Assembly (NCBI RefSeq): GCF_017052655.1
Contig: NZ_JAFIDC010000001.1
Coordinates: 620,001 to 684,000, forward strand
DNA length: 64,000 nt
Direction of reading: 5' to 3'
From: Acholeplasma equirhinis
GTDB taxonomy: Bacteria > Bacillota_I > Bacilli_A > Acholeplasmatales > Acholeplasmataceae
Below the pieces are notes generated by a model. It did not search any database. It saw only the letters and a list, made by a program, of their open reading frames with translations, and was not told the origin of the DNA. Numbering within the stretch: the first letter of the stretch is position 1; every line of letters begins with the position of its first letter. The position numbers and the translations under genes are program-made. Below are positions 8,542-56,956 of the stretch, piece after piece.

Positions 8542-8712
8542 GAACAACTAAACTCTTGCCTAGCCCCATAGAATGCGCACTTCATATAACATTAGGCTTG
8601 TTATATGAAACAGTGATGCATTTGTTCAATGCATCCCCAGCAAATAAAAATATTTGCTTCGGCGGTTACACCTTTCATCACTTACTATTTGTTAACCGCA
8701 GCCTCATTAAAT
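8542..8712 (-). promoter_or_regulatory. Lysine riboswitch (L box)
   Basis: The minus strand carries L-box hallmarks in order: GAGGCTGCGG, the AGTAAG segment, GGTGTAACCGCCGAAGC, then GCTGGGGATGCATTGAAC and ATGCATCACTGT, and the 3' GGGGCTAGGC strand that closes the aptamer. The order and spacing match the Bacillus lysC leader. Together with the terminator just downstream and lysine genes behind it, this is a transcription-attenuating OFF switch. Confidence 0.93.
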
Positions 8713-8733
8713 GAGATGATTTAATTTAAAAAC

Positions 8734-12073: not shown

Positions 12074-13591
12074 CTATTCTTCAAAAATCTTCATATCATC
12101 TTTAGTTAAGTGCTTTACTTGATACATTGCAATATCTGCTTTATGCATTAAATCTCGTAAATTTTGACCGTGAAGTGGGAATATTGCAGTACCAATCGAT
12201 GCTGTAATTTGAATGCTTTGTTTTTGAATTTTTAATTCTTTTCTTAAAACGCTTGCAACTTTTTGAATTTCAGAGGTCAATTCTTCTTGATATCCTCGAT
12301 AGTGCAGTAATAATACAAATTCATCTCCACCATACCTGGCTGCAAAATTACTTCCAGAAACAAGTGTATTTAATCTTGTTCCTATTTCTTTTAAGATTTC
12401 ATCCCCAGTATCATGACCGTATAGATCATTAAATTGTTTAAAGTCATCTAAATCAATCGTAACAATTGCAAAACTTTCTCTATTTTCCACTTTAGAATTA
12501 AAGTGTTTAATAAATAATCTTCTGTTTGGTAGTTCAGTTAATGAGTCATAATATGCATATCTATCAAGTTTTTCTTTTAACTCATAAATCTCTGTTATAT
12601 CTGTAAGTGAAATGATTTTAAGTGTCTCTTCTAATTGTTGAACGATGGATATGGATAATAATGAATGTAGTATTTCTCCATCGTATCTAAGCACTGGAAC
12701 TTCTTTATTAAAAACATCATGAGGATTTGCATCAAATTGTCGAGTATTCGGTCGATCTTTCACCAAATCAAACATTCGAATTTGTGAATAATGCTTTCCA
12801 ATTAAATCTTTTTTCGAATATCCTAACTCTCTGATAAGTGTTTCATTTACATCAAGTACAATATCAGTTTCTAAATCCATCATCATCATTGAAAGTGGTG
12901 ATTGACTGAAAATCGTTTTAAATTTATTTTGTTCATAAGCCATTTGTTGGAATGATTTATCGTTAATAAGTAAATTTAAATTAATAATCATGATTGTAAA
13001 GATAATGTAATAAATAAGGATAATGTTATAATCGGTACTATTTGCCAAATGATATGTCGAGTTACTATCTGCAAAAAATGCATTAATAATTCTACTTAAC
13101 GCAATAAATGCAAGTGCAAACATAAATGAAGCTGTCATAATAATGCTATGATTAGTTTCTTTCTTACGACTTTTTAACAAGAAAAATGCACCTTTTAATG
13201 AGATTGCTAAATATGCTACATTTAATGCAATTAACGAGAATGTAATATTTATATTAAACGAATTGAAATAAATAATAGAAATAGCTGCTAGTAACATTAA
13301 AATTGATTCTTCATAGTAGTTTGTAAATTTATCAAAGAATCGATTAATTCCAACTAATATTGAGAATAAACCACCTAAGACTAAAATCCCACTGATAGGT
13401 ACAGTGAAGTCTTTTAAATTAGCATCTGAAAATATTGAAATAATGATACCAAGTGTATGTAAAAATACACCTGTGATCCAACTTTTTATCCCTGAGTATT
13501 TTTTACCGACTTTAATATACGATTGAACTAACAATAAACAAGTCGCTATTGCTATTAACAGACAGGTTGCAATGATTGATGTAAAAATCAT
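12074..13591 (-). CDS. Membrane-bound PAS-GGDEF diguanylate cyclase
   Basis: Makes cyclic di-GMP from two GTP. About seven membrane helices fill residues 1-205, a PAS domain follows (about 222-335), then a GGDEF domain (about 345-505) with DSLTELPNR, the metal-binding IDLDDFKQFND, and an intact active site RYGGDEF. The inhibitory I-site RxxD that usually lies five residues before GGDEF is absent (SGSN here), so classical product inhibition is not expected. There is no EAL or HD-GYP domain. Good AGGGAGA site at the start. It is divergent from a c-di-GMP riboswitch about 180 bp away. Confidence 0.93.
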   Translation of the reverse strand: MIFTSIIATCLLIAIATCLLLVQSYIKVGKKYSGIKSWITGVFLHTLGIIISIFSDANLKDFTVPISGILVLGGLFSILVGINRFFDKFTNYYEESILMLLAAISIIYFNSFNINITFSLIALNVAYLAISLKGAFFLLKSRKKETNHSIIMTASFMFALAFIALSRIINAFFADSNSTYHLANSTDYNIILIYYIIFTIMIINLNLLINDKSFQQMAYEQNKFKTIFSQSPLSMMMMDLETDIVLDVNETLIRELGYSKKDLIGKHYSQIRMFDLVKDRPNTRQFDANPHDVFNKEVPVLRYDGEILHSLLSISIVQQLEETLKIISLTDITEIYELKEKLDRYAYYDSLTELPNRRLFIKHFNSKVENRESFAIVTIDLDDFKQFNDLYGHDTGDEILKEIGTRLNTLVSGSNFAARYGGDEFVLLLHYRGYQEELTSEIQKVASVLRKELKIQKQSIQITASIGTAIFPLHGQNLRDLMHKADIAMYQVKHLTKDDMKIFEE

Positions 13592-13753: not shown

Positions 13754-13770
13754 TATTTAATAAAAACATC

Positions 13771-13840
13771 AATCGGCAAACTTAGGGCAACCTAAGGACG
13801 CAAAGCTATAGGGTCTTTAATTTAAGACAGCCAGTTGCAA
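13771..13840 (+). promoter_or_regulatory. Cyclic-di-GMP-I (GEMM) riboswitch, copy 1
   Basis: The aptamer shows CGGCAAAC, a CTTAGG/CCTAAG stem closed by a GCAA tetraloop, the invariant GGACGCAAAGC, then AGGGTC and the receptor strand AGCCAGTTGC. This is the Firmicute form of the class. The 3' part (AGACAGCCAGTT) is also the 5' arm of the downstream terminator, so ligand binding should prevent termination: an inferred ON switch. It controls the TasA-like and repeat-protein genes that follow. Confidence 0.93.
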
Positions 13841-13872
13841 CTTCTAGTAAGTTAAAACTGCTGTCTTTTTTT
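13825..13872 (+). terminator. Expression-platform terminator of c-di-GMP riboswitch 1
   Basis: AGACAG-CAGTT pairs with AACTG-CTGTCT (one bulged C), with an inner AACTT/AAGTT hairpin, followed by seven T. It overlaps the 3' strand of the aptamer. Confidence 0.85.
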
Positions 13873-13885
13873 GGGGAAAAGTGAC

Positions 13886-14476
13886 ATGAGAGTTAGATTA
13901 CCAATCATTATTTTAATCTTGCTTTGTATATTAGTTGGGGGAACTTCATTTGCATTTTGGACGTATACAAACTTAAATGAAGGTTATTCAATTGAGAATA
14001 ACCGTGTAACTGTAGGTACAGCTAAAGATGCAACAACAACTGTAGATTTTTCATATTTAGGTTCTGCTAATTATAAATTAGTCCCTTTTGGTCGTGCACA
14101 AGATGCAGAACCTGGAGCAGTTGAATATGTTTTATTATCTTATGAAATTAATTGGACGAATGATGAAGATTCAGCCATCATTCCTGAAGGAACCTCGTTT
14201 GATTTAATTGTTCAAATTGACAATGTCACACCGAACAATCAGTTACTTGCATCACTGTTGAATATAAGTTATCAGGTTGGGGGATCAGAACCGATCGGTT
14301 TAACCGGTGAGTCTGTTCTTGATAACTTACAGGGGACAATAGTTATCAATGGTGATGCAGTAATGGTCTATGTTTTAGTTACTCTAACTAATCCAGAATC
14401 AATTAGTGATTACGATCAAATTGTTGGTGAAATTATTATTTTTGATGTTATCTTTACAGTTTCAGAACCATCTTAA
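13886..14476 (+). CDS. Secreted TasA/camelysin-like protein with SipW-type signal peptide
   Basis: The N-terminus is a short basic segment, a hydrophobic core (about residues 5-22) and the SipW-type junction GGTSFAFWTYTN. The mature part is a predicted beta-rich domain of about 170 residues. It shares a segment with the proteins at 26028 and 26573: YKLVPFGRAQDAEPGAVEYV, and a similar C-terminus (GEIIIFDVIFTV). I chose ATG 13886, eight bases after GGGGA; the TTG at 13871 is in the terminator tail. It lies directly behind riboswitch 1 and 12 bp before the repeat protein. The assignment to TasA/camelysin is by signal type and layout, not by search; fibre formation is inference. Confidence 0.75.
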   Translation: MRVRLPIIILILLCILVGGTSFAFWTYTNLNEGYSIENNRVTVGTAKDATTTVDFSYLGSANYKLVPFGRAQDAEPGAVEYVLLSYEINWTNDEDSAIIPEGTSFDLIVQIDNVTPNNQLLASLLNISYQVGGSEPIGLTGESVLDNLQGTIVINGDAVMVYVLVTLTNPESISDYDQIVGEIIIFDVIFTVSEPS

Positions 14477-14488
14477 GGGGAGAGTTTG

Positions 14489-16381
14489 ATGGATAAATTG
14501 AGATTTGATAAATTAAAATCTCTTGTAACAGCACTTGTCATATCGGCATGTATTTTAACGACGTCTGTTTCTTTTGCTTATTGGGTTAATGTCATTAATG
14601 GTGATCAAAATGTTGCAACCAATAATAACATTTCAATTCCTTCTTGGAACTATTTAATTGATGTTCCACCTGAAGGTGTACCAGAATATAACCCAAATGG
14701 TGTGTATCAAGAAGGTGACCTTGTTTGGTATACTGGTGTCATTTATGTTATTAGACATGGTGGTTATCATCAAACGACACCTCCTGGTCAACCTTATGGT
14801 GCATTTAAAGATATTTCAATGTTTTACTTACCTACAAATACATATGATTCTGGTGAAGTTGTTGCATATCAAGGTAACTTCTATCAAGTGACAAATGGTG
14901 GTATCGCAAACGATAGAGCACCAATTATCGGCAAAGGGTGGACAATTTTTAACTTTGCCATTCTAGAATATAATCCAACTTTTGAATACTCATTAAATCA
15001 TTATGTATTTTATGATGATATTATCTACAAAGTTGTCAACGTTGGTGATGCAAAAGATGCAGCAAACCCTACAACATTAAAGGGTTGGGAACGTTATAAC
15101 TTTGGTATAAGATCTTATGATAACTCAATTAAATACACAGTTAATGATGTTGTTGTTTATAATGGAAGTCTTTATTATGTAACAAATGCAACAAATGCAA
15201 GTGCAAACAATCCAGCAACACTCAATGGTTGGGATACATTTAATAAACCAATTTCTGAATACGTTTTAAATAAGAACTATCCGGAGGGTACACTAGTTAA
15301 TTATCAAGGTTATATATATGAAGTAATGGATTTTTATTATAAATCTGCAAGTCCTGCTGGAAATATTAACTGGCAACGTAAAAATGTATATTTCCCTGAA
15401 TATCAAGCAGGCTCTCAATACGATATCAATTCATATGTTAAATACAATGGGCAAGTTTACCGTGCAAAGTGGAATAATAATCAAAATCCATCGAATGCTG
15501 CTTGGGAAGTTGTTAATATTCAACCTTATAATCCAAATACAACATACACTCTAAATCAATTTGTAACATATAATGGTAAATATTACCAAGTTGTTAACGC
15601 TGATAATGCAAACATATCAGCTCCGGGTGAAATGTACAATGCTTGGAACTTAATCGATACGAATGATTATTCACCTACAAATGTATATACTTCAACAAAT
15701 ATTGTTTACCATAATGGCACATACTATAAACCTCAAAATGTAGCTAGAGCTAATCAGTATGAACCGGGTACACAACCTGATTCATGGGTTATGGTTGGTT
15801 CAGATCAATATGATCCATTCAAAACATATCAAGTTGGTAACTATGCAATCTACGAAGGTAGATACTATAAAGTCGTAAATGAAACAAATGCCAATATGTC
15901 AGCACCAGGTGAAATGTATAATGCTTGGAATGAAGTTGGTACTTATGAATATAATCCAACAAATGTTTATCTAGCAGGTGACTTTGTTTATTATGAAAAT
16001 AATCTTTACAGAGTACAAGATGCAGCAAGAGCTAATCAGTTCGTACCTGGCACAGCATATAACGCATGGAATCAAATCAATACCAATGAATGGCGTTGGT
16101 TTAATGTTTATGTTGCGAATGACCATGTTGTTTATAATGCTCGTGTATTTAGAGTACAAAATGTAGCAAACGCGCAACAAACGATACCTGGTTCTATTCC
16201 AAATGCTTGGAATGAAGTTGGTACTTATGCTTATAAGACATTCAATGTGTATTCGCCTGGTAATATTATTGTTTATAAAAATATTGCCTATGAAGCAATC
16301 TTAGGTTCTCAAGGTATTGAGCCAGATGCACTAAATGGTGCAACTTATTGGAAACACTATATTCCTGCAAACCAACAATAA
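14489..16381 (+). CDS. Large secreted protein with twelve carbohydrate-binding-like repeats
   Basis: A SipW-type signal (TTSVSFAYWVNV, residues about 25-36) precedes twelve tandem modules of 44-48 residues filling residues ~65-630. The module pattern is Y.P...Y..GD.V.Y.G..Y.V.N..NA..P.....W, with conserved aromatics, as in chitin-binding CBM5/12 (ChtBD3) modules. The last modules are the most alike (YNAWNEVGT recurs). No enzyme domain, sortase motif or C-terminal membrane anchor is present, so it may bind cells to glycans or cross-link matrix. ATG 14489 lies six bases after GGGGAG. It shares the c-di-GMP-controlled transcript of the upstream gene. Confidence 0.85.
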   Translation: MDKLRFDKLKSLVTALVISACILTTSVSFAYWVNVINGDQNVATNNNISIPSWNYLIDVPPEGVPEYNPNGVYQEGDLVWYTGVIYVIRHGGYHQTTPPGQPYGAFKDISMFYLPTNTYDSGEVVAYQGNFYQVTNGGIANDRAPIIGKGWTIFNFAILEYNPTFEYSLNHYVFYDDIIYKVVNVGDAKDAANPTTLKGWERYNFGIRSYDNSIKYTVNDVVVYNGSLYYVTNATNASANNPATLNGWDTFNKPISEYVLNKNYPEGTLVNYQGYIYEVMDFYYKSASPAGNINWQRKNVYFPEYQAGSQYDINSYVKYNGQVYRAKWNNNQNPSNAAWEVVNIQPYNPNTTYTLNQFVTYNGKYYQVVNADNANISAPGEMYNAWNLIDTNDYSPTNVYTSTNIVYHNGTYYKPQNVARANQYEPGTQPDSWVMVGSDQYDPFKTYQVGNYAIYEGRYYKVVNETNANMSAPGEMYNAWNEVGTYEYNPTNVYLAGDFVYYENNLYRVQDAARANQFVPGTAYNAWNQINTNEWRWFNVYVANDHVVYNARVFRVQNVANAQQTIPGSIPNAWNEVGTYAYKTFNVYSPGNIIVYKNIAYEAILGSQGIEPDALNGATYWKHYIPANQQ

Positions 16382-16386
16382 TATAA

Positions 16387-16420
16387 AACCCTAGTTCAAG
16401 TCGAACTAGGGTTCTTTTAT
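16387..16420 (+). terminator. Intrinsic terminator
   Basis: AACCCTAGTTC pairs perfectly with GAACTAGGGTT around AAGTC, followed by CTTTTATTT; ends the riboswitch-1 operon. Confidence 0.88.
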
Positions 16421-19506: not shown

Positions 19507-19541
19507 TAAAAAGAAACCACCTGTCAAAAGGTGGTTTTTTT
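19507..19541. terminator. Bidirectional intrinsic terminator
   Basis: AAACCACCT pairs with AGGTGGTTT around GTCAAA, with A-rich and T-rich flanks; serves converging genes. Confidence 0.85.
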
Positions 19542-20514
19542 AATCGATAAGTTCATATTTAACTTTTGGTAAGTCTTTGATAGATTTTGCTCCAATTATG
19601 ATCATAATCTTCTTTAAATCGTTAACGAATTCTTCTACGCGTTTGATAGCTTCATCAAATTCTAAGAACGTTAAATCTAAAAAGCATCTAGAAAGTCCAA
19701 CAGCTTTCGCACCAAGTATCAATGCCTTAATGACATCGAGTGGATTTCTTACACCACCTGATGCATAAATTGATACATCATCATCTTTTTCTAGTTTCAT
19801 AAGAATTTCTGCAGTATCTAAATTAAATTCATTTAGATAATCATATGATTTACCACTTCTTGCTTCTTCAATCTTAAGAAAAGATGTGCCACCACTGCCA
19901 GCAACATCAATGTGTTTAATGCCTAATCTCTTAAGTTTTGAAATAGTTGATAAAGATAAACCCATACCAACTTCTTTAACAATTAAAGGTACATCAATAA
20001 CATCTTTAATTTTTTTAATATTCTCAGTCCAATCAGAAAAATCTCTATCACCTTCTGGCATCACAAGTTCTTGAATCACATTTAAGTGTATAGAAAGTGC
20101 ATTTGCAGAAATTAAGTTGATTGCTTCAAGTGCTTGTGAAACTGAAGCATTTGCATTTAAATTTGAAACAACAATACCTTGATGATTTTTTCTAATAATT
20201 TCAAATGAAGGTTTAGATGCTTCATCTTTGAAAATGATTGATTGACTACCAGTTACCATTGGTAAATTAAAGTGATTTGCTAGACGTGATAAAAATTCAT
20301 TAATACGATGTCCATTTGCTGAACCACCTGTCATTGCATTAATATAAATTGGATAAGGCACTTTATATCCAAGGAACTCGGTATTTAATTCAATTTGATC
20401 CATGGATAAATCAGGAAGGTCTAATGCTTCTAATCTTATTTTATCGAATGCATTTTTCTTAACTTCCTGTTTTAAAGCAAGTTCAATATGTTCGTCTTTT
20501 CTATTTTTGCTCAT
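19540..20514 (-). CDS. fni: Type 2 isopentenyl-diphosphate isomerase
   Basis: FMN-dependent isomerase interconverting IPP and DMAPP, the last step of the mevalonate route. It begins MSKNRKDEHIELAL, with the family's RK..H. N-terminus; then YINAMTGGS, VVSNLNANAS, KEVGMGLS, VDVAGSGGTSF and the flavin phosphate loop SGGVRNPLD. Length ~324 residues. The ATG at 20514 sits four bases after GGGAG and overlaps the end of mvaK2 by 14 bases. Confidence 0.94.
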   Translation of the reverse strand: MSKNRKDEHIELALKQEVKKNAFDKIRLEALDLPDLSMDQIELNTEFLGYKVPYPIYINAMTGGSANGHRINEFLSRLANHFNLPMVTGSQSIIFKDEASKPSFEIIRKNHQGIVVSNLNANASVSQALEAINLISANALSIHLNVIQELVMPEGDRDFSDWTENIKKIKDVIDVPLIVKEVGMGLSLSTISKLKRLGIKHIDVAGSGGTSFLKIEEARSGKSYDYLNEFNLDTAEILMKLEKDDDVSIYASGGVRNPLDVIKALILGAKAVGLSRCFLDLTFLEFDEAIKRVEEFVNDLKKIMIIIGAKSIKDLPKVKYELID

Positions 20515-21547
20515 TATACTCCCAAACATTTAATTCAAGTGGTGTTAAACCAGCTTTAAACCAAGCATCTTGAACTAATATTCTTTGATTTTTATTTTGT
20601 GCAATCGCGAATCCACAATCACCAAATCCTGCTCCAGATGTTTTTGCAGGTAAACCATAATCTGATGCAATTTGCATCATCTTTTTAAATGGGCTTGATT
20701 CTATGATAATACCACTTTTAGATTGTAAATCAAGTAATTGGTCTCGATACATTTCAAGCATATATTTAGTCGTGAAATAATCATTTCTTACTAGTGCTTC
20801 TTTAAACTGTGTAACAATGAGTTTAGTTTTGTTTAAGAATGTTGCATACCAAGGTGATTGATTAATTGTTTGCATCTTGCCAACCATCTGTGAAGTTGAT
20901 TGAGATATTCCACTGTAACAAATTGCGAGTTCAAACGGTGGTTTAGGTAATCGAGTAATTTTTAAGAATGGCCAAGTTAAAGTCATAACCTCATCTAATT
21001 TCCCCTTATGATTCATCACCCAAATCAAATCATAACGTGTATAGTGTACCCACCCACCAAAGATTGATGCTGCAAGTTCTCCACCTGATGAAATATCATT
21101 AATTTCAATTTGAGCAAGTACTGCTAATTTAAATAAGTCTAATTTTTTTATTTTAACGTTGTGATAATCTAAAATACCTTTAATTACAGATACAACAACT
21201 GCACCTGATGAACCCAAACCATATTTTTGATTTTCTTCTGTTGTTAATTCAGATGATAAATTAATTGAATAGACTTTAGGTTCCACTTGTTTATAATTTA
21301 AATATAAATGAGCAACATAAACTGCAGCTTTTGCATGTGTTAATGTATCATATACAAATACTGGAAGTTTATCTGATAACATCCATTTAAAATGACCTAG
21401 TTCAGAAGAAAATTCATAAGTTTTTGATGCATCAACTGTGACATTAATAAACTTATCAACTGCAACTAAAACCGCTTCATTACCAGGTTTAAGTACAGAA
21501 TATTCACCAATAATATATAGTTTTCCCGGTACTTTAAGAGAAATCAT
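20501..21547 (-). CDS. mvaK2: Phosphomevalonate kinase
   Basis: A GHMP kinase that phosphorylates mevalonate 5-phosphate. N-terminal VPGKLYIIGEYSVL, the ATP loop GLGSSGAVVVSVIKG (about residue 108) and the C-terminal KTSGAGFGDCGFAI are diagnostic for the bacterial ERG8-like type. Length 348 residues. It has a 4-base overlap with mvaD in the mevalonate operon. Confidence 0.93.
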   Translation of the reverse strand: MISLKVPGKLYIIGEYSVLKPGNEAVLVAVDKFINVTVDASKTYEFSSELGHFKWMLSDKLPVFVYDTLTHAKAAVYVAHLYLNYKQVEPKVYSINLSSELTTEENQKYGLGSSGAVVVSVIKGILDYHNVKIKKLDLFKLAVLAQIEINDISSGGELAASIFGGWVHYTRYDLIWVMNHKGKLDEVMTLTWPFLKITRLPKPPFELAICYSGISQSTSQMVGKMQTINQSPWYATFLNKTKLIVTQFKEALVRNDYFTTKYMLEMYRDQLLDLQSKSGIIIESSPFKKMMQIASDYGLPAKTSGAGFGDCGFAIAQNKNQRILVQDAWFKAGLTPLELNVWEYNEQK

Positions 21548-22491
21548 AAAAGATGCACTCCTTTACCTTCATAACAAACAACGACATGGCAAATCTTTTC
21601 ATAATAACTTATAACGTCTTTGATATTTTCTTTTTTAACGATAATTTTCACATTTGGACCTGCATCCATGGTAGCATAAACTTTGTGTCCTTGACTACGT
21701 AACCATTTAGTCAAATCTAAAATTTCATGACTTGTTTCATTTAAATACTTCACACCAGTTTTAGAAATCAGTTCATGCATCAAAGTTGCATGAAGTTCAG
21801 CAGTTTTCCCCATTGCTTCAAAATCAACTTGATTAATTGCAAATACCATGTCATTTAGTAACATATTAGTTTTTGAAATCCAATCTGATTTTAATTCAGG
21901 AAATTCTTCTAATACATTCATTGCAGATCGTGAATCAATCTTTTTCTCTCTTTGATCGACCATACAAATTAACATAGCCATATCTGAAAAACCTTTGATA
22001 GGTTCAGCAAAACTTGTTATATGATCATAACCTTCATGCCAAATTGAAAATCCATCATAAATGGAACGAGCAGCTGAACCTGAACCAAATCTTGCAAGTG
22101 CAGATAGTGCTTTAGGTTCTAAGTGAATGTCATAACTTTCCGTTGCAGCAAGCGCAAGTGCTGCAAAAGCTGATGAGCTTGATGCAATACCAGCTTTTTT
22201 AGGTACATAATTGTAAGAAATAATTTCAGCAAAATAAGGGATATTGTATAGATGTCTTACCATATCCATAAAAGTTTTTACACGCTCAAGTTCAGGACCA
22301 GTAATAAATTTATCATCAATATAAAGATGATCTTCTGTTAATAAAGGTTTATATTCAACTGAAGTTTTTGTATAAAATTTATCCACAGTAAAACTTAAAG
22401 ATGAAGTTAATGGTAAGTTCCATTTTTTATCTTTTTTTCCCCAATATTTAATTAAAGCAATATTTACATGTGCTTTAGCTGTTTTCTTCAT
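21544..22491 (-). CDS. mvaD: Diphosphomevalonate decarboxylase
   Basis: ATP-dependent decarboxylation to isopentenyl diphosphate. Signature residues are in the N-terminal AHVNIALIKYWGKKD, PLTSSLSFTVD, the catalytic loop GIASSSSAFAALALAA (about 120), GSGSAARS (about 150), and MDAGPNVK near the C-terminus. 315 residues. The start overlaps mvaK1 by 17 bases. Confidence 0.95.
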   Translation of the reverse strand: MKKTAKAHVNIALIKYWGKKDKKWNLPLTSSLSFTVDKFYTKTSVEYKPLLTEDHLYIDDKFITGPELERVKTFMDMVRHLYNIPYFAEIISYNYVPKKAGIASSSSAFAALALAATESYDIHLEPKALSALARFGSGSAARSIYDGFSIWHEGYDHITSFAEPIKGFSDMAMLICMVDQREKKIDSRSAMNVLEEFPELKSDWISKTNMLLNDMVFAINQVDFEAMGKTAELHATLMHELISKTGVKYLNETSHEILDLTKWLRSQGHKVYATMDAGPNVKIIVKKENIKDVISYYEKICHVVVCYEGKGVHLL

Positions 22492-23428
22492 GAATAATTT
22501 CCTTTAAATCATAGAACCAAGTTGTCACTGCACCACTTGCTTTTAACGCTTCTGAAATGATAACAGCTTGTTCTGTATTTTTGGCAAGAGCAATCATACA
22601 ACCCCCCTTTCCACCACCAGTTAGTTTAGCTCCTAATGCACCAGATTTAATTGCAACATCAACTAATTCTTCTAACTTTTCATCTGAGACATGGATACTT
22701 CTTAAAAGTTGATGTGCTTCGGTCATAGCTAAACCTAAACGTATCACTTCGTTATTCTCTAAATAAGTTTTAACTTCTTTTGTTAATTCTTCTAATCGAT
22801 CAATTATTGGGTTAACAACGGTAGGATTTTCATTCCAAAGTTTTCTAACCTCTGTCACAGCTTCTTTTGTTAAACCCTCTTTACCTGTATCTGCTACAAC
22901 AATAACAGCATCCATTTGTAAAGGAATAATACTTTTACCTAAATCCTTTTGGTAAAAAACAGCTTTACCTGTTGTAATTGTTGAAGCATCTAATCCGCTT
23001 GGATTCACATGATAAATTTGTTCTGCTAAATCAACAAAATGATTTAATTGATCTATTGTCAAATCAACCTCAAATGCATCAAATAAACTTCTTACAACTG
23101 CAATCGAAACAGCTGCTGAAGAACCTAATCCCCTTTGAGAAGGCAAATTTGAATCTATTTTAATATGAAATCCATTTAGTGGTTGTTTTAAATAATCGAG
23201 TACAAGTTTAATAAGTTCTTTAATACCGAATAAATTGTCTGGTGCATCTTCTAAAAAACCTTGAAAATAAATACAATCAATGGTGATAGGTTTATCAGTT
23301 TTATAAATTTTAGAAGTGATTTGTACTTGCGTAAATGGTAAAGCGATTGCCGGTTTACCATAAACAACTGAATGTTCTCCCATCAAAATGATCTTCCCGC
23401 TTGCAACCCCTTGTCCAAAATCCACCAT
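22475..23428 (-). CDS. mvaK1: Mevalonate kinase
   Basis: First kinase of the lower mevalonate pathway and first gene of the operon. GHMP motifs are GKIILMGEHSVVYGKPAI, PSQRGLGSSAAVSIA (about residue 90) with a catalytic Asp in NPSGLDASTI, and AKLTGGGKGGCMIAL near the C-terminus. 317 residues. HMG-CoA synthase and reductase, which make its substrate, are not in this window. Confidence 0.94.
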   Translation of the reverse strand: MVDFGQGVASGKIILMGEHSVVYGKPAIALPFTQVQITSKIYKTDKPITIDCIYFQGFLEDAPDNLFGIKELIKLVLDYLKQPLNGFHIKIDSNLPSQRGLGSSAAVSIAVVRSLFDAFEVDLTIDQLNHFVDLAEQIYHVNPSGLDASTITTGKAVFYQKDLGKSIIPLQMDAVIVVADTGKEGLTKEAVTEVRKLWNENPTVVNPIIDRLEELTKEVKTYLENNEVIRLGLAMTEAHQLLRSIHVSDEKLEELVDVAIKSGALGAKLTGGGKGGCMIALAKNTEQAVIISEALKASGAVTTWFYDLKEIIHEENS

Positions 23429-25866: not shown

Positions 25867-25892
25867 ATTAGCAATTATGAATTTAAGCATAT

Positions 25893-25966
25893 CTTATCGG
25901 CAAACTTAGGGTAACCTAAGGACGCAAAGCTATAGGGTCCTGATTTTACAGTGGCAGCCAGTTGCA
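25893..25966 (+). promoter_or_regulatory. Cyclic-di-GMP-I (GEMM) riboswitch, copy 2
   Basis: The core at 25897-25939 matches copy 1 (13773-13815) at 42 of 43 positions; the single change is in the tetraloop (GTAA for GCAA). GGACGCAAAGC and the receptor strand AGCCAGTTGC are intact, while the P2 arm between them differs in sequence. The 3' strand again lies within the terminator 5' arm, indicating ON control of the secreted proteins at 26028 and 26573. Confidence 0.93.
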
Positions 25967-26003
25967 AATCAAAACTTTTGATTTCAAGGGCTGCTTTTTC
26001 TTT
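25954..26003 (+). terminator. Expression-platform terminator of c-di-GMP riboswitch 2
   Basis: GCAGCC pairs with GGCTGC, enclosing a strong AAATCAAAA/TTTTGATTT stem, followed by TTTTTCTTT. It shares the GCAGCCAGTTGC strand with the aptamer. Confidence 0.87.
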
Positions 26004-26027
26004 CGTAACGGCTATGGGGGCATAGGT

Positions 26028-26543
26028 ATGAATAAAAGATTGAGTATAACATTACTCATTGTACTTGTTATCGCAATCATATATACAGTATCTGTTTCAT
26101 TTTCATATTGGGCTGCGCTAGACCATTATGCAAATGTATATATATCAATTGATACATTACATGAAGCAGAATTATCTGTAAATCTTAAAGAAGATGAATC
26201 AAATTTTAATAAAAAACTTGTCCCTCAAGGTTTTGTAAAAAATTCAGATGAAGTTGATGAAATACACTTCATCTTCGAACTTGACTTAACCGGTGATGAA
26301 TTACTACCAGGTGTTGAGCTTGGATTAACCATCACAGCCATAAATGTTTTGTTAGATGGAACTGATCAATATAACTACTTAGTTGTTATTGAACTTCCAA
26401 ATAACGGCAATCTCTTAATCTCGAATGAAGTTCTCGTAGTAGTTGTCAAGGTTAGACTTCTTGAACCAGCGACAAGTGAGATTGCTACTGCAATCATGGG
26501 TAAAAATATCACCTTTGATTTGCACTTTAGGGTTGTTTCTTAA
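26028..26543 (+). CDS. Secreted TasA/camelysin-like protein with SipW-type signal peptide
   Basis: A 171-residue protein. Hydrophobic signal at about 6-24 and junction SVSFSYWAALD. The mature part resembles the proteins at 26573 and 13886: KKLVPQGFVKNSDEVDEIHF aligns with their LVP.G block, and it ends in GKNITFDLHFRVV. The ATG at 26028 is seven bases after GGGGG; the in-frame TTG at 25962 lies in the riboswitch. It is the first gene after riboswitch 2, 29 bp before its paralogue. It may be a minor or initiator subunit (TapA-like) by analogy only. Confidence 0.72.
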   Translation: MNKRLSITLLIVLVIAIIYTVSVSFSYWAALDHYANVYISIDTLHEAELSVNLKEDESNFNKKLVPQGFVKNSDEVDEIHFIFELDLTGDELLPGVELGLTITAINVLLDGTDQYNYLVVIELPNNGNLLISNEVLVVVVKVRLLEPATSEIATAIMGKNITFDLHFRVVS

Positions 26544-26572: not shown

Positions 26573-27172
26573 ATGAAAAAGAATCAAAAATTAATGCTAG
26601 CAGTCTTATTCTTACTAGCAGTTGTATCCTTAGGGATTTCTTATGCATATTGGGCTTCAATTGAATTAGAAGCAGATGTTGATGGTAATGTTGTTACAAT
26701 CGGTACTGGTCGTATTTCAGAAGTTAGTGCTTCTGCTCTTGGTCAAACTGACGGTGTATTAGTACCTGCTGGTCAAGCAGCTAATTCATTAGAAGATGAT
26801 GCTGTTGAATATGTAATGTTTAAATTCCAAGTTGTTTGGGAATCAAATGATGCAGATTCAGAAAAAACTGGTGTTGTAACTGTTGCTTTTGACGATCTTG
26901 AAATTGATCATCCTCTCAGTTCAATCTTAGTTGATTACGTATCACTTTCTTACCAAATTGGTGGTACACATGATGATGGTACATTTAACGGTGATGGTGA
27001 TTATGCTATCGAAGGAAACGGTGGTGCAGTTACTGTTTGGGTTAAAGTTGTTCTATTAGAACCTATGGAAAATTTACCAGGAGTTACTAAAGAAAATGCT
27101 GAAGATTATGCTAAAGCATTATTCGGTTCAGAAATTACATTCACAGTATTATTTACAGTTATTGAAGACTAA
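26573..27172 (+). CDS. Secreted TasA/camelysin-like protein, possible matrix-fibre subunit
   Basis: A 199-residue, acidic, glycine- and valine-rich protein. Signal MKKNQKLMLAVLFLLAVVSL then GISYAYWASIELEADVDGN, the clearest SipW-type junction in the window. The LVPAGQAANSLEDDAVEYVM block and FGSEITFTVLFTVIED end are shared with the two paralogues. A strong GGGAGAG site precedes it. It is followed at once by a terminator, as expected for the abundant product of a short operon. Fibre assembly is inference from TasA; sequence identity to TasA was not measured. Confidence 0.75.
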   Translation: MKKNQKLMLAVLFLLAVVSLGISYAYWASIELEADVDGNVVTIGTGRISEVSASALGQTDGVLVPAGQAANSLEDDAVEYVMFKFQVVWESNDADSEKTGVVTVAFDDLEIDHPLSSILVDYVSLSYQIGGTHDDGTFNGDGDYAIEGNGGAVTVWVKVVLLEPMENLPGVTKENAEDYAKALFGSEITFTVLFTVIED

Positions 27173-27214: not shown

Positions 27215-27290
27215 AATTCATATAAAAATATAAAATTATGCTAAAATAATGATAAAGATATACTTTACCATTATAAATAGGGGTATTTAC

Positions 27291-27818
27291 ATGGCGGAAA
27301 AGTTAGATTCAAATAAATTAATAAGTATCATCCTATACAGCATTATAGGTCTTTTAGGTTTATTCATTGTCTTCGTCTTATATTTCCCATTTGTAACAAT
27401 GAATTTATTCGGATTTGCAATATATGGTGGATTCAGTGGTGTAGATGCTTCTTTAGATAGAGGTGATGCATTAATTGTTACACTCGATGATTTTGAAACT
27501 TTAGATAATACTAAACTAATTGTTTTTGAACTCGATGGTTACGGTAGTGCAGATGGTCTTAAAGTCTATAAGATCATGACTGAAGTTGTAGCTACAGAAA
27601 AAACTTATCGTGTACATAGTTCAGGTTCTGCAATATCCTATCAATGGGATATTACTGAAGATATGTATTTAGGTACTGTTAAATCTAAATTACCTGCATT
27701 AGGTTATATTATTGGATTCTTAAGAAGTCCAATTGGTGTAACTGTGATTCTTATTAATGTCATATTAATAACAACAGCTGTCATCTTGGTTAAAAAATTA
27801 AAACCACAATCAAAATAA
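27291..27818 (+). CDS. SipW-like membrane protein, signal-peptidase fold, catalytic Ser not evident
   Basis: One helix near each end (about residues 10-35 and 148-168) flanks a beta-rich outer domain, the layout of SipW/archaeal-type signal peptidases. SGVDASLDRGDALIV occupies the place of the usual SGSMEP..KRGD box, with glycine where the nucleophilic serine should be. LGYIIGFLRSPIGV matches the family's C-terminal helix entry. The His-Arg dyad motif is not visible. ATG 27291 follows AGGGG by eight bases. It may be a divergent or inactive paralogue, a chaperone for SipW-type substrates, or unrelated. Confidence 0.5.
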   Translation: MAEKLDSNKLISIILYSIIGLLGLFIVFVLYFPFVTMNLFGFAIYGGFSGVDASLDRGDALIVTLDDFETLDNTKLIVFELDGYGSADGLKVYKIMTEVVATEKTYRVHSSGSAISYQWDITEDMYLGTVKSKLPALGYIIGFLRSPIGVTVILINVILITTAVILVKKLKPQSK

Positions 27819-27839: not shown

Positions 27840-28424
27840 ATGAAATCCATTAGAGCACTACTTTTAGTATTTTCTGTGCTATTTTTTATGGTTGAAATAT
27901 TCTTGGTTGTTATGATTTTATTAGGACCACAGAATGAATATCTCTTCTACTCGTATAATCATATTCAAGCAGTTCCATTCAACCAACCCATCGTTAATAA
28001 TACAGTTCAAGTCGGTATCGGTAAAATGGTACCTTTTAATGTTGATGATTTAGAACCTGGAGATTATGTTGTTGCACATAATAATATCAATTTAGACTAC
28101 ATGTGGGTTCATCGTGTGATATCTATTGATACTAATAATGAAACAATCACACTTTCAGTTAATGATCTCCTTGGCACATATGAGATGAGGTATGATGAAA
28201 TAAGTGGTAACTATATTGGAGATTCTAATCTACTTGAACAACTTCTCTTTATTTCTACAGATCCTTGGATATTCTTTTTAAATGTCGGTGCTGCTATATC
28301 ACTTACAATCTTTTTAAGTTTATGGACAATCCATGGTTATCGTAAATTTAGAGACTCTGGTCATGATGACCAAAATAATTCGGCAACAAAAAATTACAAA
28401 TTGGAAGATTTTGTGAAACTTTAA
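27840..28424 (+). CDS. SipW-like membrane protein retaining the VHRV motif
   Basis: A 194-residue protein with helices at about 8-30 and 143-165. Between them LEPGDYVVAHNN and YMWVHRVISID match the second half of the signal peptidase I core (GD.V.F...THRV), including the His used by ER/SipW-type enzymes. The SGSMEP nucleophile box is not recognisable in the preceding PFNQPIVNNTVQVGIGKMVP segment. It follows its paralogue by 21 bp with a GGGG site. Likely to belong to the secreted-protein system nearby; whether it cleaves anything is open. Confidence 0.5.
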   Translation: MKSIRALLLVFSVLFFMVEIFLVVMILLGPQNEYLFYSYNHIQAVPFNQPIVNNTVQVGIGKMVPFNVDDLEPGDYVVAHNNINLDYMWVHRVISIDTNNETITLSVNDLLGTYEMRYDEISGNYIGDSNLLEQLLFISTDPWIFFLNVGAAISLTIFLSLWTIHGYRKFRDSGHDDQNNSATKNYKLEDFVKL

Positions 28425-31370: not shown

Positions 31371-31727
31371 AAGAATTGGTGCATAAGCCATGTTCTGTAG
31401 AATTCAATTCTTGTGACTATTTATCTCGAGATAGACTCGTAAGTTTCCCATTGCTGAGATTCTCATGCCCCTACCAAATTTGGGTTGCTAGCTTGAGGGG
31501 TTTACCGCGTTTCATTTTACTGGTTTCCCAATAAACTCGTTTCTGTGGCACGTTCTGAACCTTGATCATAGTTTCCCTTAGATTTTTGGTTCGCCGTTAT
31601 GATTTCTCATACCCAAAGTTATTTTTTTCTTTGGCACAAACACTACAGACCACTAGGGTCTGTGCTAGCATGGACTTTCCTAACAAGGACTACATGTAGC
31701 CTTGCTCAGTCACCTTCCCAATTCTAA
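31371..31727 (-). ncRNA. rnpB: RNase P RNA, bacterial type B
   Basis: Catalytic RNA of RNase P. On the minus strand AGAATTGG at the 5' end pairs with CCAATTCT at the 3' end (P1). Conserved elements follow in order: GAGGAAAGTCC-like GGAAAGTCCATGCTAGCAC, AACGGCGAACC, GTGCCACAGAAACG, GAAACGCGGTAAACCCC, and the 3' ACAGAACATGGCTTA. The GCAC segment pattern fits the Bacillus-like class. About 357 nt; ends are set from P1 pairing. Confidence 0.93.
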
Positions 31728-56843: not shown

Positions 56844-56945
56844 AAAGTTTTCTAGATAACTTTTCCTACGCTGGTATAACCCAGATCAGGTACACGGGTC
56901 GATTTTGAATTTAATCCTCTCAGTCATTCTAATGACTCCCCGAAG
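56844..56945 (-). promoter_or_regulatory. TPP riboswitch (thi box)
   Basis: Minus-strand order: CTTCGGGGAGTC, the pyrimidine-binding GACTGAGAGGAT, GACCCGTGTACCTGATCTGG and GTTATACCAGCGTAGG, all consensus. CTTCGGGG at the 5' end could also pair with the terminator CCGAAG, allowing switching. Expected to turn thiT off when TPP is high. Confidence 0.95.
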
Positions 56946-56956
56946 TGATCATACGT

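Follow-up and report, generated by a model that had tools for sequence, protein, structure and literature searches.

What does a bacterium of the Acholeplasmataceae do with a secreted protein that consists almost entirely of a string of carbohydrate-binding-like modules? The question is raised by a 64,000-nucleotide stretch of the Acholeplasma equirhinis genome (assembly GCF_017052655.1, contig NZ_JAFIDC010000001.1, positions 620,001 to 684,000), hereafter the window, in which one gene encodes twelve tandem modules resembling carbohydrate-binding module (CBM) families 5 and 12. A first-pass annotation of this DNA took the product for a polyvalent glycan- or chitin-binding adhesin. We propose that the gene probably encodes a rod-like accessory subunit of an extracellular fibre system that is switched by cyclic diguanosine monophosphate (c-di-GMP), processed by a SipW-type signal peptidase, and built from TasA-like proteins. 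Mollicutes are usually regarded as poor in surface appendages and in second-messenger control. The gene and its parts, in window positions, are as follows.

14489..16381, + strand: CBM5/12-repeat protein gene, an open frame of 630 amino acids (aa)
14489..14578, + strand: predicted signal peptide, aa 1-30, ending ...SVSFA/YW, from the sequence and an alignment with relatives
14579..14647, + strand: N-terminal tag left after cleavage, YWVNVINGDQNVATNNNISIPSW, with a profile common to proteins with unrelated C-terminal parts
14684..16372, + strand: twelve abutting CBM5/12-like modules, from module coordinates and an AlphaFold2 model of modules m07-m09

The start codon, ATG, is preceded by the ribosome-binding-site-like AAGGGGAGAG. 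The modules number exactly twelve, as the first-pass annotation had counted, and they do fill nearly the whole protein: aa 66-628, or about 89%, without linkers. From the N- to the C-terminus they are 47, 47, 49, 48, 47, 42, 47, 47, 47, 47, 47, and 48 aa long (42-49 aa), and the protein matches the Pfam family CBM_5_12 (PF02839) in eight stretches (E = 2.2e-28; 98.5 bits against a cut-off of 26.2). Because the pairwise amino-acid identity among the twelve is 15-55%, the modules, judged by their sequences, are old and diverged, not homogenised. A 20-mer that had been taken as a sign of homogenisation among the later modules, AATGCTTGGAATGAAGTTGG, does recur, in two exact copies at 15920 and 16202 (282 nucleotides (nt) apart; chance about 0.01), and the DNA repeats D1, D2, and D4, 62-76% identical, are likewise spaced at 282 nt, the length of two modules. 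Judging by this spacing, module pairs (m7-8, m9-10, and the start of m11-12) were probably duplicated as the late part of the gene expanded. In other words, repeated DNA is present, but “homogenised” was too strong a word for modules of such low identity, and Tandem Repeats Finder reported no array in the gene. Homogenisation of single modules was rejected in view of the two-module period, and a slippage-prone array in view of the Tandem Repeats Finder result together with lengths that are stable within genera. Orthologues have ten modules in Peloplasma-like genomes and eight in others, against twelve here, and their open frames span 531-552 aa in most full-length species of genus g3 and 439-455 aa in those of genus g15. 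These genus-to-genus differences (12, 10, and 8) are the only ones seen in a comparison of species and genera, rather than of strains of one species, and they lend no support to the earlier suggestion that module number varies by slippage.

AlphaFold2 was given an alignment of 54 module triples, drawn both from the window protein and from named relatives (some of its rows are shifted by one module and were retained, since the modules remain in register), and it modelled m07-m09 as an ordered string with a predicted local distance difference test (pLDDT) of 94.3 and a predicted template-modelling score (pTM) of 0.78. Foldseek matched this model in the PDB to the CBMs of Vibrio chitin-oligosaccharide deacetylases, the nearest solved tandem relatives of the modules, with a probability of 1.0, to 2rts at 1.4 Å over 47 columns, and to 2d49 with TMt 0.67. 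None of these matches has an E-value below 1e-3, which is unsurprising given the small size of the domain, and a PDB sequence search with the modules agrees more strongly with CBM5/12 (1.3e-10). On these matches and the model, the modules have the CBM5/12 (ChtBD3) fold; the structural comparison with ChtBD3 that the first-pass annotation had suggested returned this fold and not an unrelated one.

Does the fold still imply chitin binding? In CBM5, the chitin-binding residues are two adjacent surface aromatics and a third, and a buried Tyr and Trp form the core (PMC8449059). In an alignment to 1ED7 and 2D49, none of the twelve modules has the adjacent pair (Y-W or W-W) in register; an F-Y-Y in m05 is displaced by one residue to a later position, and m06 has one Trp. 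The Trp of ChiA1 (CBM12) is also missing, and the buried core Tyr and Trp alone are kept. Relatives have the pair in at most one module (KYYTQ, KFYTT, or GYYTT), and two of them have lost it. In its place, the most conserved C-terminal modules carry VxNxxNANxxxPGTxxNAWN; the Asn-rich VxNxxNAN motif lies in the same loop, is common to most later modules, and is conserved between genera whose sequences otherwise share about 28-40% identity, and the C-terminal module is both distinct and conserved. The modules thus resemble those of ChiA1 (1ED7), ChiC (2D49), and the tandem CBMs of the Vibrio deacetylases in their fold, their length (about 45 aa), and their YxxGDxVxYNGxxY core with its Tyr and Trp, but they differ in being present in twelve copies, in having no catalytic domain, and in carrying the Asn-rich motif where the aromatic pair is missing. 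Because the paired aromatics are missing in register from every module, canonical chitin binding is not predicted, despite the CBM5/12 fold, and the chitin-binding part of the earlier claim is not borne out.

The regulatory surroundings of the gene point in another direction. The gene is the second of a two-gene unit, 12 nt behind the first, and the unit has a riboswitch leader that is matched by another, at a second operon about 10 kb away. The first-pass annotation of the gene had overlooked the riboswitch, the TasA-like partner gene, and this second operon of the window.

12074..13591, - strand: PAS-GGDEF protein, divergent to the first leader (Pfam GGDEF E = 2.2e-43; YGGDEF motif intact)
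13765..13842, + strand: c-di-GMP-I riboswitch aptamer, leader of the two-gene unit (Rfam RF01051, full length, 61.0 bits, E = 1.8e-9)
13824..13872, + strand: terminator-like hairpin and T-run (stem found by script; -17.4 kcal/mol, z = -3.4)
13886..14476, + strand: TasA-like subunit of the TasA2 family, secreted, 196 aa (relatives' TasA2 hidden Markov model (HMM), E = 2.1e-28)
16387..16413, + strand: intrinsic terminator closing the unit (11-pair stem, CTTTTATTTA tail)
25889..25969, + strand: second c-di-GMP-I riboswitch (RF01051, 62.0 bits)

The gathering score of RF01051 is 35. In the first leader, the 5' arm of the terminator, AAGACAGC (13824-13831), sits within the 3' strand of the aptamer and pairs with GCTGTCTT, which is followed by seven T; the terminator form is the minimum-energy fold, and no shuffled sequence was equally stable. 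The second leader has a GCAGCC/GGCTGC-T5 terminator that again overlaps the aptamer 3' strand. Because of this overlap, c-di-GMP is predicted to release transcription at both window leaders (an ON switch); the script did not find the overlap in most relatives, and the prediction is limited to these two leaders. The PAS-GGDEF neighbour is a possible local source of the second messenger. With full-length matches far above threshold and a terminator as putative expression platform, the leaders are like other c-di-GMP-I (GEMM) riboswitches; they differ in their predicted target, a unit of SipW, TasA-like, and CBM proteins in Acholeplasmataceae-type genomes, on which we found no paper.

RF01051 precedes the TasA1 gene in all nine relatives' loci with a full TasA1 leader or an intact operon start (L044, L045, L046, L048, L049, L050, L051, L053, and L054). 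The A. equirhinis genome has five RF01051 matches in total: two in the window, two within L011, where a second SipW operon lies, and a fifth at C1:238714-238791, ahead of a 163-aa TasA1 homologue (E = 1.4e-21). All five lead TasA-like genes, so the entire c-di-GMP-I riboswitch set of one genome points to one target class, secreted TasA-like proteins and their CBM-repeat partner. In three other places, three to four such riboswitches stand in tandem, about 125 nt apart (G021:C2:259425-259876, G055:C107:46853-47168, and G059:C89:2819-3168).

Among 88 genomes of the family, 36 have CBM-repeat matches, some of which involve just the N-terminal tag, and 46 have RF01051; both are present in 35, the CBM-repeat protein alone in one, and the riboswitch alone in 11. 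The co-occurrence has a Fisher p of 1e-13, or 5e-6 without genus g8, both values being inflated by shared ancestry. Both elements are absent from all 28 genomes of g8 (0.3-0.9 Mb), which, from their size and position, look like host-dependent phytoplasmas. The pattern of riboswitch and TasA-like gene recurs across free-living relatives and is absent from every small-genome g8 species.

The second window cluster, behind the second riboswitch, contains four further genes that relatives keep together with the CBM-repeat gene.

26028..26543 (mechanical open reading frame (ORF) 25962-26543), + strand: TasA-like subunit of the TasA1 family (HMM E = 4.1e-22)
26573..27172, + strand: TasA-like subunit of the TasA2 family (HMM E = 2.1e-24), 34% identical to the product of the 13886 gene
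27249..27818, + strand: SipA, a degenerate SipW paralogue without the conserved His (HMM E = 8.1e-27)
27840..28424, + strand: MemB, a degenerate S26-like membrane protein (HMM E = 2.9e-17)

“TasA-like” is a working label, because TasA is found by Foldseek and not by sequence: with the AlphaFold2 model of the 13886-14476 protein (pLDDT 68.7), Bacillus subtilis TasA (5of2) ranks second (E = 2e-3, probability 0.99, TMq 0.39). In relatives, among them Peloplasma aerotolerans M4Ah, strains zrk7 and MO-XQ, and several metagenome-assembled genomes, the conserved order is gap-TasA1-TasA2-CBM-SipA-MemB-SipC-ung, and their SipA and SipC are recognised by the SipW-type model TIGR02228. The A. equirhinis genome has two loci with SipW-type peptidases above the cut-off of this model; its SipC (family HMM 3e-32) has SMEP and THH and scores 40 bits, below the cut-off of 51.85. 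This SipC gene lies on a different contig, immediately before ung, a position that it holds in eight of eight genomes of the genus, two of which still have gap-SipC-ung; by protein search, the TasA2 family occurs in A. equirhinis alone among these eight. The operon is thus in three parts here: the 13886 unit, the second window cluster about 10 kb away, and SipC at ung. The most economical account is a single ancestral operon that was broken in three in A. equirhinis and largely lost in its sister species, although the parts in the window may instead have come from a related genus. In strain zrk2 (L052:7998-9302), the CBM-repeat gene stands alone, off its operon, and the gene downstream looks by eye like an insertion-sequence transposase. 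It should also be mentioned that SipA has lost its catalytic residues (ESMEP/THYI to DTMEP/TYY and similar) in L048, L049, L050, L051, L053, and L054 as well as at window 27249-27818, and that MemB never has the catalytic Ser; an active S26 peptidase is therefore encoded beside two dead paralogues.

How might the CBM-repeat protein be attached to such subunits? Aromatics follow its predicted cleavage site (SFA/YW), a feature used to recognise SipW-dependent substrates, and [YF][WF] is kept in all twelve orthologues. The 34 residues that follow the predicted cleavage site in CBM proteins were made into a profile and searched against 596 ORFs; the better matches are exclusively N-termini directly after signal peptides. 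The 20-residue tag recurs (E 7e-9 to 1e-3) in other large secreted proteins, whose remainders are unrelated (GLUG repeats, RCC1 propeller, GA-like, and M26-N-like), and more weakly (E 1e-4 to 1e-2) in the TasA2 subunits that several relatives encode. Four of the tag-bearing large proteins are preceded by a c-di-GMP-I riboswitch (L055, L056, and L058 twice). In TasA and TapA, common N-terminal residues are the donor strand of the fibre (PMC9674648, PMC10151520), and by analogy the tag recalls these donor strands. It would also offer a means of finding fibre-attached proteins from sequence alone.

Several observations weigh against the proposed fibre system: (i) the TasA relationship rests on a mid-confidence model with a best Foldseek E-value above 1e-3, and neither Pfam nor PDB chains gave a TasA or camelysin match by sequence profile, so that TasA identity by sequence was rejected; (ii) the tag profile has no significant match to the TasA2 proteins of the window itself, the reverse search is weak, and the TasA2-to-CBM similarity lies partly within the signal peptide; (iii) the gene for the active peptidase is unlinked to the two-gene unit; (iv) the SipW-substrate model TIGR04088 matches no window protein and gives 12.3 bits against a cut-off of 19 for the TasA1 of one relative, and it cannot serve as proof of SipW dependence; and (v) the co-occurrence of riboswitch and repeat protein is confounded by phylogeny. 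Of the earlier description as a SipW-type secreted protein, secretion stands and SipW is linked to the protein by neighbourhood in relatives, but its signal does not match TIGR04088.

Four other explanations can be set beside the fibre-attached rod. The modules might be a pure spacer, a rigid, non-binding stalk that keeps some distance between the membrane and the N-terminal tag or a bound partner; their abutment without linkers, the ordered three-module model, and the loss of canonical binding residues from nearly all of them would fit. The Asn-rich motif kept across such divergent genera suggests a surface under selection, and together with the distinct, conserved C-terminal module makes a mere stalk a possible but doubtful answer. 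The protein might instead be a TapA-like starter that donates the first strand of TasA-like polymerisation, with the modules anchoring the fibre base to the cell surface. It has the N-terminal similarity reported for TapA, its gene is right behind a TasA-like gene, and it lacks a TasA-like domain of its own; yet neither a membrane nor a wall anchor is seen in its sequence, and the same tag on large proteins with unrelated C-terminal parts fits interchangeable tips better, so that we think such a starter fairly improbable. A polyvalent adhesin for chitin or N-acetylglucosamine glycans, binding weakly through each module and gaining avidity from twelve, has in its favour the family and fold, the kinship with deacetylase CBMs, and possible residual sites in m05 (F-Y-Y) and m06 (Trp). 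It is nonetheless unlikely, with neither the in-register aromatic pair nor the ChiA1 Trp left beside the buried core and with the Asn-rich motif shared by most later modules instead; a chitinase link was not found either, although no search of the genome was aimed at chitinases. A phage tail-fibre remnant or phage-derived gene is highly improbable and was rejected: CBM5/12-like modules are common in tail fibres, and Foldseek matches Caudovirales proteins and an F2-pyocin fibre, but no phage genes are seen around the gene, and its riboswitch-led synteny with gap and ung is chromosomal and conserved over many species.

In the fibre system that we favour, the c-di-GMP level would be raised by a diguanylate cyclase, for which the divergent PAS-GGDEF neighbour is a candidate. 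The c-di-GMP would bind the leader riboswitch and withhold the aptamer 3' strand from the overlapping terminator hairpin, so that both this unit and the second operon, about 10 kb off, would be transcribed. The TasA-like subunits and the CBM-repeat protein would then be exported, and a SipW-type peptidase, probably the SipC encoded beside ung on the other contig, would cleave them. The new N-terminus, YW...ISIPSW, similar to those of subunits in relatives, could act as a donor strand of the TasA/TapA type and plug the protein onto a TasA-like subunit. The twelve folded modules may then extend outwards as a rod with a length of about twelve domains, and its non-canonical faces would contact a surface, a matrix polymer, or a neighbouring cell. 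More tentatively, Acholeplasmataceae-type bacteria may possess a modular plug-in fibre, in which one riboswitch-switched TasA-like filament receives varied large proteins (CBM5/12 rods, GLUG, RCC1-type, and GA-like) through an interchangeable donor-strand tag; a SipW-type peptidase, in concert with catalytically dead paralogues, would uncover this tag.

The proposed system is like tapA-sipW-tasA of B. subtilis in its SipW-type peptidase, its small secreted beta-rich subunits, and a secreted accessory protein that, after cleavage, has an N-terminus similar to theirs. It is unlike that operon in lacking detected sequence homology to TasA, in its several subunit families and extra degenerate peptidase paralogues, in its control by a c-di-GMP riboswitch rather than SinR, and in its accessory protein, a twelve-module CBM5/12 string; moreover, Peloplasma, which is the closest relative among named cultured bacteria, has no cell wall, unlike B. 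subtilis. Searches of the literature for SipW/TasA with CBM5, Acholeplasma with c-di-GMP riboswitch, and c-di-GMP with Mollicutes returned nothing describing the system, and the description of Peloplasma mentions no biofilm, TasA, chitin, adhesins, or fibres. Our observations suggest an on-demand surface fibre in a bacterial group without one described in the literature searched. They raise the question of whether a wall-less bacterium builds a c-di-GMP-controlled matrix fibre, and of what a CBM-derived rod would hold.

A related SipW operon is present at L011 in the A. equirhinis genome and at L082 in strain MO-XQ. Its order is c-di-GMP riboswitch, TasA-like genes, SipW, AAA ATPase, DUF2357, second SipW, TasA-like genes, and a large CBM5/12-like-repeat protein of 741 aa in A. 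equirhinis and 2523 aa in MO-XQ. A large CBM5/12-repeat protein thus recurs as the end product of c-di-GMP-controlled SipW operons. The McrB-like AAA ATPase and DUF2357 (McrC-like) genes (L011:4974-14626 and L082:1440-18874) are in an unexpected place for such a pair. At a third A. equirhinis locus (L012:5687-10169), a 430-aa SipW-like protein is encoded with five TasA-like genes, and no riboswitch was found there.

Elsewhere in the window, the Rfam scan placed three further RNAs, and a gene cluster was recognised by eye from its translations.

8565-8715, - strand: lysine riboswitch
31379-31721, - strand: class B RNase P RNA
56846-56952, - strand: thiamine pyrophosphate (TPP) riboswitch
19540-23428, - strand: apparent mevalonate-pathway cluster (isopentenyl diphosphate (IPP) isomerase, phosphomevalonate kinase, diphosphomevalonate decarboxylase, and mevalonate kinase)
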